Assembly (NCBI GenBank): GCA_019634245.1
Contig: JAHQVR010000099.1
Location: 1-8,434 of the forward strand
Length of the DNA: 8,434 nt
Origin: Gammaproteobacteria bacterium
GTDB taxonomy: Bacteria; Pseudomonadota; Gammaproteobacteria; Granulosicoccales; Granulosicoccaceae
Direction: 5' to 3'
Both the position numbers and the translations under genes were made by a program. This document shows positions 1,009 through 7,438 of this stretch, one piece after another. The first letter of the stretch is position 1. Every line of letters begins with the position of its first letter. Under the pieces are notes generated by a model. That model was given only the letters and a program-made list of their open reading frames with translations. It was not told the DNA's origin and ran no database searches.

Positions 1009-2964
1009 ATGAGTAACGATAATAAAATCAGCAACCCCAGCCCTAGTAACGATGGGAGTTCTTTTGTCGAAATTTGCGCGCGGAGATATTCGCGTCGTGA
1101 CGTTTTAAAAGCGGGAGCCGCCGCCAGCGCGGCATTTGCCCTAGGTTCTTTGAGTGGGTGTTCAGGCGAAGAAGAAGTTAGTTCAGAGGAACTAGCTAAC
1201 TCTAATTGGCGCACTGAAAACCCGTATCGAAGTGCGTATGACTTTATCGAAATCCAACACGGTATGGATGAGCATCACCATGTGGCGCCCGATCATCAAG
1301 CGCAGGTTTTGTTGCGTTGGGGTGATCCTCTGTTTAAGCATGCGCCAGAATTTGACCCCAATGCGCAAACGCTCGATTCTCAACTGCAGCAGTTCGGTTA
1401 TAACAACGATTACATCGGCTATGTCGCGCTAGAACCTAAAAAGGGTCAGGATGCACGGGCGCTATTATGTGTCAATCATGAATACCCTATCCATGGTTTA
1501 ATGTTTCCAGGATTTGGTGCTAACGACAGTATCTCCGCAGAACAGGTAAAGATTTCGCAAGCGGCCTGCGGTGCGAGTGTGGTGGAGGTTAATTGCAAGG
1601 ATGGCATTTGGGAAGTTAATCTTGATTCCGTTTACAACCGTCGTATCACGTCCTTGGATACGGAGATGGAAATTACTGGGCCGGCGGCGGGCCACTCACG
1701 TATGCGAACCAACGCTGATCGATCTGGTAAAAAAGTACTCGGTACCTTAAATAACTGTGCTGGAGGAATCACGCCCTGGGGCACGTACTTAACTTGCGAA
1801 GAGAACTTCAATTATTGCTTTGGGGGTGAACTGCCTGCGAACCACCCTGAAACCGCAAACCATGAGCGCTATAACGTGCCCCTAGGTTGGATGCATTGGG
1901 ATAAGCATGACGCTCGATTTGATATCAGTAACGAGCCCAATGAGCCGAACCGTTTCGGCTGGGTTGTTGAGATCGACCCTTTTAATCCTAAATCCAAGCC
2001 TAAGAAGAGAACCGCACTGGGCCGCTTCAAACATGAAGGTGGTGAAAATATTATTGCGACAGATGGTCGCTTGGTCATCTATATGGGGGACGACCAAAAT
2101 TTTGAATACCTATACAAGTTTGTTAGCCGTGACCCAGTAAATTTGGGCAATCCAAAAGCAAACCGAGATTTACTAGATCATGGCACCTTATATGTCGCTA
2201 AGTTCTACGATGAAGGCTATCTGGAATGGTTGCCGTTAGAGCATAGCCAAGGCCCGCTGTCAGCACATTTTGACTCTCAAGCCGATGTTCTGATTGAGCC
2301 GCGTAGAGCTGCTGATCTACTCGGTGCAACACCGATGGACCGCCCCGAAGATGTGGTGCCAAACGCCAAGACAGGTAAGGTTTATGTGATGTTGACCAAC
2401 AACACAAAGCGTAAAACGCCCAATGTTGCGAACCCGCGCGCCGCGAATGTTTTTGGCCATATTATCGAAATCTCTGAGTTAGATAACAATCATGCTCAGA
2501 CCCGTGGCTATTGGGATATGTTGGTCAAAGGTGGTGATCATAACAATCAAGATCATGATGCCTATTTCCATCCTGAGACCAGCGAAAATGGTTGGTTTGC
2601 CAGCCCCGATAATGGTGCGATTGATCCGACAGGTCGGCTATGGGTGTCCACCGACCAAGGCCCAAAAGCAAACCTCACTGGCACTAATGACGGGCTTTGG
2701 TCACTTGAAACTGAAGGCCCCTTGCGTGGCATGAGTAAAATGTTTTTTCGCGTGCCCATGGGTGCAGAAATGAGTGGGCCGGTTTTTGCTGATGATGGTG
2801 AGAGTCTGTTTTTGGCCGTGCAGCACCCTGGTGATATTGAAGAACGACCGGGTAGCGCTAGGATTGAAACCGCATCAACTCGTTGGCCGGATTTTGCAGA
2901 AAGCATGCCGCCAAGACCGTCAGTCGTTGTGGTTACTCGTAAGAATGGTGGTCGTATCGGGTGA
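1009..2964 (+). CDS. phoX: PhoX/DUF839 family phosphatase, Tat-exported probable lipoprotein
   Basis: PhoX-family proteins are Tat-exported phosphatases; the characterised Pseudomonas PhoX is an iron/calcium alkaline phosphatase that releases phosphate from organic phosphomonoesters. With the ATG at 1009 the protein has 651 residues, a normal length for the family. The N-terminus has a twin-arginine motif, SRRDVLK (residues 28-34), a hydrophobic Ala-rich stretch, and a lipobox LSGC with Cys51, so a lipid-anchored protein is likely; Ser at +2 fits outer-membrane sorting. Family landmarks are NNCAGG (248-253), TCEEN (262-266), FGWVVEIDP (about 316-324), MGDDQNFEYLY (about 359-369), RPEDV (445-449) and a late SPDNGAIDP segment (about 532-540). 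I cannot assign each metal ligand from memory. An in-frame TTG at 1000 is an alternative start, but ATG is preferred; an in-frame TAA at 967-969 rules out starts farther upstream. No strong ribosome site is seen: GGGAA at 1002-1006 is too close. The stop overlaps the next gene in GTGA (2961-2964). Substrate is not proven; many DUF839 proteins are uncharacterised. Confidence 0.88.
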   Translation: MSNDNKISNPSPSNDGSSFVEICARRYSRRDVLKAGAAASAAFALGSLSGCSGEEEVSSEELANSNWRTENPYRSAYDFIEIQHGMDEHHHVAPDHQAQVLLRWGDPLFKHAPEFDPNAQTLDSQLQQFGYNNDYIGYVALEPKKGQDARALLCVNHEYPIHGLMFPGFGANDSISAEQVKISQAACGASVVEVNCKDGIWEVNLDSVYNRRITSLDTEMEITGPAAGHSRMRTNADRSGKKVLGTLNNCAGGITPWGTYLTCEENFNYCFGGELPANHPETANHERYNVPLGWMHWDKHDARFDISNEPNEPNRFGWVVEIDPFNPKSKPKKRTALGRFKHEGGENIIATDGRLVIYMGDDQNFEYLYKFVSRDPVNLGNPKANRDLLDHGTLYVAKFYDEGYLEWLPLEHSQGPLSAHFDSQADVLIEPRRAADLLGATPMDRPEDVVPNAKTGKVYVMLTNNTKRKTPNVANPRAANVFGHIIEISELDNNHAQTRGYWDMLVKGGDHNNQDHDAYFHPETSENGWFASPDNGAIDPTGRLWVSTDQGPKANLTGTNDGLWSLETEGPLRGMSKMFFRVPMGAEMSGPVFADDGESLFLAVQHPGDIEERPGSARIETASTRWPDFAESMPPRPSVVVVTRKNGGRIG

Positions 2965-3845
2965 GCTTAGCGCACAACCTTCTTGCCCTGCTCGTGGTAT
3001 TCATCTGGGGCACGAATTTCGTTTTTATTCGCTACGGTTTAGATGAGCTAGGACCATTTACGTTCGCCGCCTTGCGCTTTGCTTTGGTGGCATTTCCATT
3101 GGTGTTATTTTTGCCGCGTCCCGCAGTTCCCTGGCGTTCGCTAATCAGCTATGGCGTGCTGATTGGAGCAGGACAGTTTGGTTTCTTGTTCTGGGCAATG
3201 CAGAGTGATATTTCGCCAGGGCTGGCGTCTTTAGTTGTGCAAAGCCAAGTGTTCTTTACCGTAGGATTGTCTGCCTACCTACTCTCAGAGTCTGTGGGTA
3301 GAACGCAATTGATTGCCTTAGCTCTAGGTCTGCTTGGCATCTCCGTAGTATTAGTCTTTACTGACGGCTATACCACCGGGTTTGGTGTGACGTTAACTTT
3401 GTTAGCTGCCTTGAGTTGGGCGGGTGGTAATTTAGTCGTTAAGCATGCAGGCCAGGTGGACGTGTTGGCGTACATCGCTTGGTCATCCATTTTTGCTTTG
3501 CCGCCCCTGTTTCTGGTCGCTTTCTTATTTGAAGGCGGAACCAGCATTTTCAGCGCTGCTGCCAATACTTCTGCGCGCGGATGGGCGGTCATCATTTGGC
3601 AAAGTGTGGGCAACACTTTGATCGGCTATGGCTTGTGGAATTTTTTGCTGAGTCAGTATCGAGCAGCAATCGTTGCCCCGTGGGCGCTGATGGTACCAGT
3701 GTTTGGCTTGCTGGCGTCTTCAGTGATGTTGTCTGAACCAATGCCAGCATGGAAATTAGTGGCTGCGGCTCTCATTCTGAGTGGTCTAACGCTGAATATT
3801 GTTGCGGGGCGAGAACGCATCGCCCAATCTACTCACGGTGTTTAA
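2961..3845 (+). CDS. eamA: EamA/DMT-superfamily inner-membrane exporter, YdeD-like
   Basis: This 294-residue protein is very hydrophobic, with about ten predicted membrane segments (roughly 5-25, 33-51, 62-80, 86-108, 115-134, 141-161, 168-190, 207-227, 236-257, 263-282). They form the two EamA repeats of the drug/metabolite transporter superfamily. Its first half closely resembles, as I remember it, E. coli EamA (YdeD), an exporter of O-acetylserine and cysteine: LLALLVVFIWGTNFV near the N-terminus, LRFALVAFP (38-46) and GLASLVVQSQ (87-96). Export of amino acids or related metabolites is therefore a reasonable inference, but substrate in this superfamily is poorly predicted by sequence. The GTG start overlaps the phoX-like stop by 4 bases, indicating translational coupling; GGTGG at 2947-2951 may help as a ribosome site. 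The TAA stop (3843-3845) overlaps the stop of the convergent GNAT gene. Family call is secure; the gene symbol is tentative. Confidence 0.88.
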   Translation: MSLAHNLLALLVVFIWGTNFVFIRYGLDELGPFTFAALRFALVAFPLVLFLPRPAVPWRSLISYGVLIGAGQFGFLFWAMQSDISPGLASLVVQSQVFFTVGLSAYLLSESVGRTQLIALALGLLGISVVLVFTDGYTTGFGVTLTLLAALSWAGGNLVVKHAGQVDVLAYIAWSSIFALPPLFLVAFLFEGGTSIFSAAANTSARGWAVIIWQSVGNTLIGYGLWNFLLSQYRAAIVAPWALMVPVFGLLASSVMLSEPMPAWKLVAAALILSGLTLNIVAGRERIAQSTHGV

Positions 3846-4342
3846 ATCGGCCCCTGCCAATAACCTACATCCACCCATTTATCAAACTTATACCCCACTT
3901 CCTTAAAGTGGGCTACTTTTTCCATGCCAAACTTTTCGTGCAGCGCTATGCTTGCATCGTTAGGCAATGAAATACCACCTATCACCATATGGTATCCCAG
4001 CTCCGATAGAGCGCTGAAGAGTTCATCATAGAGTTTACTGCCTAGACCATGCCCCGTTGCGTCGGGTGCTAGGTACACGGTGGCTTCTACCGTATATCGA
4101 TAAGCACAACGCCCTTTCCATTTGCTGGCGTAGGCGAAGCCACGGACCTGATCATCAACCTCTGCCACCAGATAGGGCAAAGACTGTTGTTCCGTCTCAG
4201 CGATGCGGGTCGCTATTTCTTCGCCGTTTACGGCCGTTTCTTCAAAGGTAACAACGGTATTGGCAATGTAATGATTATAGATGGCAGCAATGCTGTGAGC
4301 ATCACTGCCATCGGCCAGCCGAATGACAATGGACTTCGACAA
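3842..4342 (-). CDS. GNAT N-acetyltransferase, phosphinothricin acetyltransferase/MnaT-like
   Basis: The 166-residue product is a single GNAT domain of the subfamily holding phosphinothricin acetyltransferase (PAT/Bar) and E. coli MnaT (YncA). These transfer acetyl from acetyl-CoA to the amino group of amino-acid-like substrates such as methionine sulfoximine, methionine sulfone or phosphinothricin. Visible signatures are IRLADGSDAHSIAAIYNHY at the start, TVEATVYL (84-91), with Glu86 in the spot of the conserved TVE glutamate, the CoA loop TGHGLG (96-101), SLPNDASIALHE (125-136) and a C-terminal KWVDVGYWQ (155-163). The CoA loop normally begins with Gln or Arg; here it is Thr96. The only fitting start is TTG at 4340-4342. 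It lies 2 bases after the M20 stop with no good ribosome site, so translation probably depends on coupling with the upstream M20 gene. Its 3' end overlaps the eamA-like stop by 4 bases. The real substrate is unknown; a detoxifying or general amino-acid N-acetylase is likely. Confidence 0.87.
   Translation of the reverse strand: MSKSIVIRLADGSDAHSIAAIYNHYIANTVVTFEETAVNGEEIATRIAETEQQSLPYLVAEVDDQVRGFAYASKWKGRCAYRYTVEATVYLAPDATGHGLGSKLYDELFSALSELGYHMVIGGISLPNDASIALHEKFGMEKVAHFKEVGYKFDKWVDVGYWQGPI
3894..3921 (+). terminator. Probable intrinsic terminator of the plus-strand genes, inside the convergent GNAT gene
   Basis: CCCACTT (3894-3900) and AAGTGGG (3906-3912) form a perfect 7-base stem with a 5-base loop. 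Four bases later comes TTTTT (3917-3921). This is the layout of a Rho-independent terminator for transcription leaving the eamA-like gene, whose stop is about 50 bases upstream. The hairpin lies within codons of the GNAT gene (around residues 145-150), so it could also be a by-product of the coding sequence. The T-run serves only the plus strand. Confidence 0.6.
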
Positions 4343-5792: not shown

Positions 5793-6704
5793 ATGAGTCA
5801 TTCCACCCATAGCTATCAGCAAGATGCTCGCAATGAGCAAATTAAAATAAATATAAATGGCGAATTGTTTGCCCGTGCTGAAGCCAAAATCTCGGTGTTC
5901 GATTCGGCCTTTATGTTGGGCGACGGTGTCTGGGAGGGGTTGCGCGTACACAACGGCAAAATTGCCTTTTTACAAACTCATTTAGACCGTTTATGGGCTG
6001 GCGCCAAGGCCTTGGATTTTGACCCTGGGATCTCGCAGCAGCAACTCACTCAGCGCATTCACGACACACTGAATGCTAACGACATGAGTGATGGTGTGCA
6101 TTTGCGATTGATGGTCAGTCGAGGTACTAAATCGACGCCCTATCAAGATCCGCGTGTGACGATTACACCACCTACCATCGTGATCATCCCAGAGTATAAA
6201 GAGGCACTTCCAGAAACGGTGAGTAAAGGAATTGAATTGTTTACCGTGCACGTCCGTCGTGGATTTCCCGACGTGCAAGACCCCAAACTCAATAGCCACT
6301 CAAAAATAAATTGTATCTTGGCTTGCATACAAGCTACCAAAGCCGGAGCGGATGAAGCTTTAATGCTCGATCCACATGGTTTCGTGGCGACCTGTAATAG
6401 CACGCATTTCTTTATTGTTAAAGACGGTGTGGTGATGACATCAACCGGTCAATATTGCATCGATGGTGTGACCCGCGGCGCGGTCTTGAGATTGTGTAAG
6501 GAAAATCAAATCGAGAGTGCGCAAACTGAATTTTCTCTGGTCGACGTTTACAGCGCTGAAGAAGTATTCGTAACGGGAACATTCGCAGGGCTGGTACCCG
6601 TGCGTAGCGTGGATGGCCGGCAAATCGGGGCTGGCAAGAGAGGCCCGATGGTAAAACGTCTGCAGGAGCTCTACATGACACTGTTAGCCGAAGAGTGCGC
6701 ATGA
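5793..6704 (+). CDS. Class IV (fold-type IV) aminotransferase homologue with atypical active-site pattern
   Basis: The family includes branched-chain aminotransferase IlvE, D-amino acid aminotransferase and aminodeoxychorismate lyase PabC, all cytoplasmic PLP enzymes. The 303 residues show the family order: INGELFARAEAKISVFDSAF (21-40), GDGVWEGLR (43-51), THLDRL (62-67) with Arg66 in the PLP-phosphate position, DEALMLD (187-193), GVTRGAVLRL (225-234) and VFVTGTFAGLVPV (258-270). Two positions are unusual. In PDVQDPKLNSHSKINCILA (159-177) the usual lysine slot reads Asn167, while Lys165 and Lys171 flank it. In GFVATCNSTHFF (196-207) the glutamate that contacts the pyridine nitrogen reads Thr200. 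A remembered plant homologue has a lysine at the place of Lys165, so that residue may form the PLP link through a longer loop. The start at 5793 has only a weak ribosome site (AAGA, 5779-5782). The TGA stop overlaps the next ATG in ATGA. Fold is sure; substrate, and even transaminase activity, are not. Confidence 0.87.
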   Translation: MSHSTHSYQQDARNEQIKININGELFARAEAKISVFDSAFMLGDGVWEGLRVHNGKIAFLQTHLDRLWAGAKALDFDPGISQQQLTQRIHDTLNANDMSDGVHLRLMVSRGTKSTPYQDPRVTITPPTIVIIPEYKEALPETVSKGIELFTVHVRRGFPDVQDPKLNSHSKINCILACIQATKAGADEALMLDPHGFVATCNSTHFFIVKDGVVMTSTGQYCIDGVTRGAVLRLCKENQIESAQTEFSLVDVYSAEEVFVTGTFAGLVPVRSVDGRQIGAGKRGPMVKRLQELYMTLLAEECA

Positions 6705-7438
6705 ACGAGGAGGTAATTCGAATAGCGATGTGGAGTGGGCCTCGGAACATCTCTACTGCGATGATGCGTGCTTGGGAAAATCGTGCGGATACAGTAGTCG
6801 TGGATGAACCATTCTATGCCTGTTATCTGACGCACACCGGAATTGTTCACCCGATGCAGGAAGAAGTATTAGCGAGCCAAGCAAACAATTGGCAACAGGT
6901 AATCGATGGAGAGTTGAGTCGGTCTTTATCAGCAGAGCAAAGCATTCAGTACCAAAAGCACATGACGCATCATATGGTTGATGAAGTTTCGCCCAGCTGG
7001 TTCGCGTCACTTCGGCATGCGTTTTTGATTAGAAACCCGGCTGAAGTCGTGGTCTCGTACAGTAAGAAGCGAGCCGAGTTATCCGCCGATGACATCGGCT
7101 TTCGACGCCAGCGAGAATTATTTGAAAAGGTTCGTGCTCTAGGGATTGAGCCACCTGTGATAGAGTCCACTGATGTTCTAAAAGCACCGCGTGCCAGCTT
7201 ACAAAAATTGTGTGCAGCCCTAGCGGTACCGTTTGATTCTGCGATGCTCAGTTGGCCACAAGGCTGTCGGAGTTCGGATGGAGCCTGGGCGCCACACTGG
7301 TATCAGAACGTAGAAAACTCAACCGGGTTCGCACCCTATGAAGAGAAGCCAATACAATTATCGGCTGCTCAACAGCGTGTTGTGAACGAATGCCTTGACG
7401 ATTATCACGCGCTGGCTGAATACAAAATTAAACCATGA
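6701..7438 (+). CDS. Sulfotransferase-like P-loop protein, partner of the class IV aminotransferase homologue
   Basis: With the ATG at 6701 the product has 245 residues, with no signal peptide or membrane segment. It shows the two nucleotide sites of the PAPS sulfotransferase fold. A first strand (VIRIAMW) leads into the loop WSGPRNIST (residues 11-19), a variant of the usual 5'-phosphosulfate loop. HAFLIRNPAEVVVSY (106-120) matches the 3'-phosphate motif, with Arg111 and Ser119. Other likely family-conserved pieces are VVDEPFYACYL (33-43), WAPHWYQNV (196-204) and ENSTGF (205-210). These also match, from memory, the N-terminal half of plant branched-chain aminotransferase-like proteins, whose C-terminal half is a class IV aminotransferase. 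Both gene junctions are ATGA overlaps, so co-translation is likely. GTG at 6695 is an alternative start; ATG at 6728 would remove the first strand. Reaction and acceptor are unknown: PAPS-dependent sulfation, another nucleotide use or a non-enzymatic role are all possible. Confidence 0.8.
   Translation: MNEEVIRIAMWSGPRNISTAMMRAWENRADTVVVDEPFYACYLTHTGIVHPMQEEVLASQANNWQQVIDGELSRSLSAEQSIQYQKHMTHHMVDEVSPSWFASLRHAFLIRNPAEVVVSYSKKRAELSADDIGFRRQRELFEKVRALGIEPPVIESTDVLKAPRASLQKLCAALAVPFDSAMLSWPQGCRSSDGAWAPHWYQNVENSTGFAPYEEKPIQLSAAQQRVVNECLDDYHALAEYKIKP
6707..6714 (+). promoter_or_regulatory. Strong Shine-Dalgarno-like sequence inside the start of the P-loop gene
   Basis: GAGGAGGT at 6707-6714 is close to the ideal anti-16S match, but it lies just after the chosen ATG (6701) and 14 bases before the in-frame ATG at 6728. 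It is too far from 6728 to be an optimal site, and a protein starting there would lose the first beta strand. It may recruit ribosomes around the overlapping stop and start, or be chance from codons for Glu-Glu-Val. Confidence 0.35.

Follow-up and report, generated by a model that had tools for sequence, protein, structure and literature searches.

The window analysed here is a stretch of 8,434 nucleotides from a gammaproteobacterium of the Granulosicoccaceae (contig JAHQVR010000099.1 of assembly GCA_019634245.1). Two genes overlap on its forward strand, one coding for a homologue of class IV aminotransferases, referred to as AT, and the other for a sulfotransferase homologue, referred to as SULT:

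5793..6704, forward strand: AT, class IV aminotransferase homologue without the lysine that binds pyridoxal 5'-phosphate (PLP); 303 amino acids, ATG start
6701..7438, forward strand: SULT, PF19798 sulfotransferase homologue; 245 amino acids from the ATG at 6701
6701..6704, forward strand: ATGA stop/start overlap of AT and SULT, read from the sequence; the same −4 overlap is found in 39 of 64 measurable junctions

The overlap of four bases had been pointed out in the initial annotation, and we could confirm both reading frames as well as the ATGA. An alternative in-frame start codon of SULT, the GTG at 6695 upstream of the ATG, is less likely. On the basis of the overlap, translation of the two genes is probably coupled. 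In Pfam, AT matches PF01063 (Aminotran_4) at 140 bits (curated cut-off 28.5) and SULT matches PF19798 (Sulfotransfer_5) at 211 bits (curated cut-off 23.2). AT stays below the cut-off of all 18 NCBIfam models that it matches, including those for branched-chain aminotransferase (BCAT), D-amino acid transaminase and aminodeoxychorismate lyase; its best scores are 255.5 against a cut-off of 363 (PRK08320 subfamily) and 215.4 against 245.55 (ilvE_I equivalog). For SULT no NCBIfam model was found at E ≤ 0.001.

Loss of the Schiff-base lysine in AT

The active site of AT was compared among 101 distinct relatives, i.e. the best match in each fetched locus that reached at least 225 bits to the window AT, a threshold of our own choice, with identical sequences counted once. 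The roles of the phosphate-cup and ring-contact columns are taken over from the E. coli BCAT, the Arg59 of which presumably corresponds to Arg66 of AT. The following positions are relevant:

5988..5990, forward strand: Arg66 of AT, phosphate-cup residue; R in 101/101
6291..6293, forward strand: Asn167 of AT, AAT codon, at the position of the PLP lysine according to the alignment to 5cm0, 7z79 and 9j32; N in 93 and H in 8 of 101
6465..6476, forward strand: Gly225-Val-Thr-Arg228 of AT, phosphate-cup loop (GITR type); G225 and T227 in 101/101
6573..6581, forward strand: Thr261-Gly-Thr263 of AT, phosphate-cup loop; T263 in 100/100 covered rows of 101

The Schiff-base lysine is thus replaced in every one of the relatives, by Asn in 93 and by His in eight. 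A narrower alignment with 72 rows besides 5cm0 (70 two-gene loci, the window and 7z79) gave Asn in 66 and His in six, and Lys in 5cm0 itself. The class IV aminotransferase proposed in the initial annotation therefore holds at the level of the family, PF01063, but not at the catalytic lysine, and a working aminotransferase is not supported in view of the Asn or His in 101/101 relatives. A substitute Schiff-base lysine elsewhere in AT was considered and rejected, as not a single lysine column is invariant (K113 is found in 97/101 and K136 in 92/101).

The other contacts to the PLP ring have changed as well. In the column that meets the ring nitrogen the window has Thr200, and the relatives have Thr (71), Ser (22) or the acidic Glu (8). 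The three contact columns co-vary, reading N-K-T in 70, N-R-S in 22, N-R-T in one and H-L-E in eight of the relatives; the window AT belongs to the Asn type. Archaeal-type branched-chain aminotransferases (5cm0, 5e25 and 5mqz) have the fold and the phosphate cup in common with AT, whereas the contact columns of 5cm0 are Lys, Tyr and Glu in place of Asn, Lys and Thr. The phosphate cup characteristic of class IV aminotransferases (Arg, G-I/V-T and T-G-T) is complete in AT. Moreover, H103 (101/101) and E134 (100/101) differ from the canonical 5cm0 and yet are almost invariant. Since Asn has long been retained although it is one base change away from Lys, the replacement is better ascribed to selection than to decay.

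Below the chosen threshold, the next-best matches across all fetched loci fall to 195 bits and read K-Y-E. Eleven matches at or below 195 bits have K (7), L (2), R (1) or N (1) at the lysine site, where the L and R may be due to alignment shifts. We also calculated an AT tree of 141 rows by a quick method with support from the Shimodaira–Hasegawa-like approximate likelihood ratio test only. The loci L081 to L173 had yielded 71 AT rows; rows shorter than 250 amino acids and three identical rows were omitted from the tree. The Asn and His types form one clade (support 99), which is divided into an Asn half of 84 rows (100) and a His half of 17 rows (99), and the Lys-bearing paralogues lie outside this clade. 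One sequence with Asn at the lysine site (L146, genome G200) is located outside the clade on a long branch that groups with canonical enzymes, possibly through an independent loss or a misalignment. Four others (L161, L167, L169 and L172) have a gap or another letter at this site, probably owing to short or shifted alignments.

The closest solved structures, 7z79 and 9j32, carry entry titles that state no function. The former, an 'aminotransferase-like protein' of Variovorax paradoxus, is homologous over AT residues 4–299 (312 bits) and has Asn at the same site; the latter is entitled 'aminotransferase-like protein from Variovorax paradoxus mutant N174K' and has Lys at the position of the AT Asn. 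The neighbours of the Variovorax protein in the tree (L012 and L020) are found beside PF19798 genes. Because 7z79 and the Lys-restoring mutant 9j32 have already been deposited, the lysine-less AT relative as such is not new.

SULT and the sulfate donor

The predicted structure of SULT is a high-confidence sulfotransferase fold, and both motifs for binding 3'-phosphoadenosine 5'-phosphosulfate (PAPS) are present. The positions concerned are as follows:

6734..6757, forward strand: SGPRNIST, presumed 5'-phosphosulfate-binding P-loop of SULT; W11–R15 and S18 invariant in 42 sequences
6806..6808, forward strand: Glu36 of SULT (DEP motif), candidate general base, a putative role; invariant in 42 sequences
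7031..7060, forward strand: RNPAEVVVSY, presumed 3'-phosphate-binding motif of SULT; R111 and S119 invariant in 42 sequences

A profile search of the PDB with SULT returned only 4gbm and 4gox at E ≤ 0.01, both of which are also among the best fold matches. These are the sulfotransferase domains of CurM and an olefin synthase, which act on a carrier-bound beta-hydroxy acid. The RNPAEVVVSY region of SULT aligns to them and the fold is alike, with just 15–19% identity.

SULT probably uses PAPS, as hinted by the genomic surroundings of its relatives, namely an APS-kinase (adenosine 5'-phosphosulfate kinase) fusion and paralogues beside ATP sulfurylase. A protein of 416 amino acids (P0171) has a complete APS kinase domain fused to a PF19798 domain, and P0163 and P0165 are shorter relatives. 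Weak PF19798 paralogues adjoin ATP sulfurylase in six loci (L101, L104, L105, L107, L111 and L113); in four of these (L101, L104, L105 and L111) APS kinase comes next, which places a sulfotransferase homologue within a PAPS-synthesis operon. The weak paralogues of Actinomycetota belong to the same Pfam family as SULT and have PAPS motifs that are similar by eye, but they share 27–34% identity and have no AT within about 1.5 kb. In one locus (L110, 434–3185) such a paralogue lies between two genes for OpuAC-type glycine betaine binding proteins, and a choline-like acceptor is possible there. PF19798 is also joined to an ArsC domain in P0151 and to an HD domain in P0174, either of which may be an annotation artefact.

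Pairing of AT and SULT across genomes and in fusions

Genome contigs were scanned for relatives of SULT, which yielded at least 584 confirmed stretches, the best 80 of which were compared as loci. In 71 of these 80, AT and SULT are no more than 2 kb apart, so that the adjacency is by no means confined to the genome of the window. AT comes before SULT, with both genes on one strand, in 65 loci and after it in four; in two loci it is encoded on the opposite strand at a distance of up to 2 kb, and in nine it is off the locus. Among the 64 measurable AT-to-SULT junctions the spacing is at most 20 bases in 60. As the set of 80 loci is skewed to close SULT relatives, genomes were also drawn evenly from whole phyla; each of these samples includes its own centre genome (G004, G018 and G033, respectively), which had been picked for having the pair. 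In Pseudomonadota, the phylum of G004, PF19798 was detected in 10/150 genomes and AT (E ≤ 1e-55) in those same ten, nine of which have the two genes adjoining. In Actinomycetota, the phylum of G018, nine of 149 genomes have a PF19798 match above 100 bits, and the same nine have AT (E ≤ 1e-58), in all cases adjacent. Nine further actinomycetotal genomes have only weaker PF19798 matches (20.7–69.5 bits) and no AT match, and none was found at E ≤ 1e-58 in the seven genomes whose only paralogue scores 60–70 bits. In the phylum of G033, which contains the archaeal locus L080, SULT occurs in 9/145 genomes and AT adjoins it in all nine. Where SULT is not beside AT (10 genomes), an Asn-type AT is encoded elsewhere in seven and absent in three, and 0/20 genomes without SULT have an Asn-type AT.

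In a tree of SULT sequences, those with Asn-type and those with His-type partners are not separated, which hints that SULT may perform the same chemistry with both types. Clustering of 983 open reading frames (ORFs) from the 80 loci revealed no third gene that is conserved next to AT and SULT. The clusters present in at least four loci are SULT (57), AT (44), two clusters (13 and 12) presumed to be antisense shadows of these genes, and three others (7, 5 and 4), counts that came from a crude ORF caller which overlooked genes, including those of the pair. The cluster found in four loci (L001, L005, L040 and L051) is an enoyl-CoA hydratase-like gene, as judged by eye, downstream of SULT. Inspection by eye of the ORFs around solitary AT and solitary SULT genes revealed no common partner.

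The two proteins also occur as natural fusions. A search for longer proteins that contain the SULT part gave 153 matches, and the following counts refer to the 120 matches listed. Here, 37 proteins were taken as carrying PF01063 too, with SULT first in 14 and AT first in 23; among the AT-first proteins there are several singletons or incomplete sequences, possibly artefacts of read-through. Best supported are the SULT-first fusions P0195, P0199 and P0201 (539 amino acids; 1, 28 and 13 members), so a P-loop-domain-first order exists in bacteria. The same order is presumed for the Arabidopsis proteins known as 'branched-chain aminotransferase-like', which are putative fusions with an aminotransferase domain behind a P-loop domain and on which the initial annotation had drawn. 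No plant names were found among the 120 matches listed in each of two protein searches, where most matches are nameless; in the last protein search the matches listed are all bacterial-looking and mostly single-domain, and a literature search by plant gene names or phrases did not turn up plant fusion proteins. The proposal that the two products act together is supported by the conserved adjacency, the matched presence and absence, the archaeal pairs and the natural bacterial fusions.

According to Pfam, the other genes of the window code for a gamma-glutamyltransferase fragment and PhoX, EamA, GNAT, M20 and DUF885 proteins. At E ≤ 1e-5 these neighbours have no matches in the 80 loci, with the exception of DUF885 in four. 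The GNAT protein (3842–4342, reverse strand) scores 219.8 bits against a cut-off of 210 for the NCBIfam arsinothricin N-acetyltransferase ArsN1 family B, and the PhoX-family and EamA transporter genes (1000–2964 and 2961–3845, forward strand) overlap by four bases if EamA starts with the GTG at 2961.

A proposed two-component sulfotransferase and its alternatives

The computations show that AT and SULT are paired, that AT lacks the lysine but retains the phosphate cup, and that SULT has a sulfotransferase fold with its motifs. The explanation that we prefer, and to which we would give about an even chance, is that AT and SULT are one unit, a PAPS-dependent sulfotransferase with a nearly obligate, lysine-less and non-transaminating partner that likely binds a phosphorylated ligand. 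Use of PAPS, formation of a complex and the type of AT ligand are the predicted parts of this proposal. SULT would sulfate an acceptor with PAPS as donor. AT, an aminotransferase fold without Schiff-base lysine, would not perform normal transamination; because the phosphate cup has been kept and the pocket rebuilt and strongly conserved, it would most likely bind a phosphorylated small molecule, either an adduct of pyridoxal or pyridoxamine phosphate or a different phosphate ester, and would most likely hold, present or shape the acceptor for sulfation by SULT.

Several observations weigh against this proposal. Three of the ten genomes with unpaired SULT (G009, G011 and G019) have no AT at E ≤ 1e-60; in two of them the contig ends 193 and 451 bases away from SULT, and in the third SULT has 8 kb on each side. 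The distance matrices of AT and SULT correlate weakly in a mirror-tree comparison (r 0.29, permutation maximum 0.22). With regard to the donor, ATP sulfurylase or APS kinase matches occur in 0/80 pair-type loci, so that the hints to PAPS stem from relatives; ATP sulfurylase is absent from 6/12 weak-paralogue loci, and the APS-kinase fusion is represented in full length by one singleton only, besides two shorter relatives. A model of the fusion P0201 (predicted local distance difference test score 84.7, predicted template modelling score 0.56) has no readable interface, and its domain arrangement was not used. Finally, AT might have kept the phosphate cup only as a relic.

The main rival to an acceptor-binding AT is that the protein is still a cofactor enzyme, which binds pyridoxamine 5'-phosphate (PMP) or a PLP–amine adduct without the lysine and, with His or another base, makes or consumes an amino compound that is sulfated by SULT. 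There is a precedent for such lysine-independent chemistry in ColD, a PMP enzyme in which His replaces Lys, and both the invariant phosphate cup and the Glu meeting the PLP ring nitrogen, retained in 8/8 His-type rows, fit this idea. The Asn type, including the window, differs however from the K-Y-E of 5cm0 at all three ring contacts and offers no evident general base, so we consider the alternative unlikely, albeit one to be taken seriously. It is less probable again that AT is a non-catalytic pseudoenzyme with a structural or regulatory role, stabilising SULT or sensing a phosphorylated metabolite. Whereas the co-occurrence with SULT and the absence of lysine from the site in all relatives would suit a pseudoenzyme, the near invariance of H103 and E134, both changed relative to 5cm0, suggests that AT has a specific ligand or reaction. 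That the pair consists of a normal transaminase and a sulfotransferase acting in successive steps, the simplest form of what the initial annotation had in mind, is very improbable in view of the lysine missing from the site in 101/101, the lack of any other invariant lysine and the scores below every matched NCBIfam cut-off. Hitch-hiking of functionally unrelated genes in one operon, for which nothing specific speaks, can practically be dismissed, given that the pair is kept in three sampled phyla, one of them archaeal, that it occurs in both gene orders and in fused form, and that presence and absence of the two genes match.

The listings of openly licensed papers that we searched showed nothing on the AT relative, the function of PF19798 or the pair, although work may exist in these papers or elsewhere; PF19798 appears in one table row of PMC11625862 and is mentioned once in PMC12506393. 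The absence of an assigned reaction, as noted in the initial annotation, thus stands within this literature, and its term 'undescribed' suits the pair as far as searched but does not wholly suit AT, for which homologue structures exist (7z79 and 9j32). What the present analysis adds is the link of the lysine-less protein to a sulfotransferase, seen in all three phyla sampled, one of them archaeal. With somewhat more reserve than for the unit as such, we propose that the pair may represent an undescribed two-component sulfotransferase of bacteria and archaea, and of plants too should the putative plant fusions be real; its acceptor-binding or co-catalytic partner would have been derived from an aminotransferase fold devoid of the lysine, and its product would be a sulfated metabolite.

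For the family, this means that the label 'branched-chain amino acid aminotransferase' given by some sources to members such as P0249 and P0257, the relatives of which have His at the lysine site, is probably wrong with respect to function. The data point to a sulfated metabolite in about 6–7% of the sampled genomes of three phyla (10/150, 9/149 and 9/145, centre genomes included). If the plant proteins belong to this family, plants would carry out this reaction as well.
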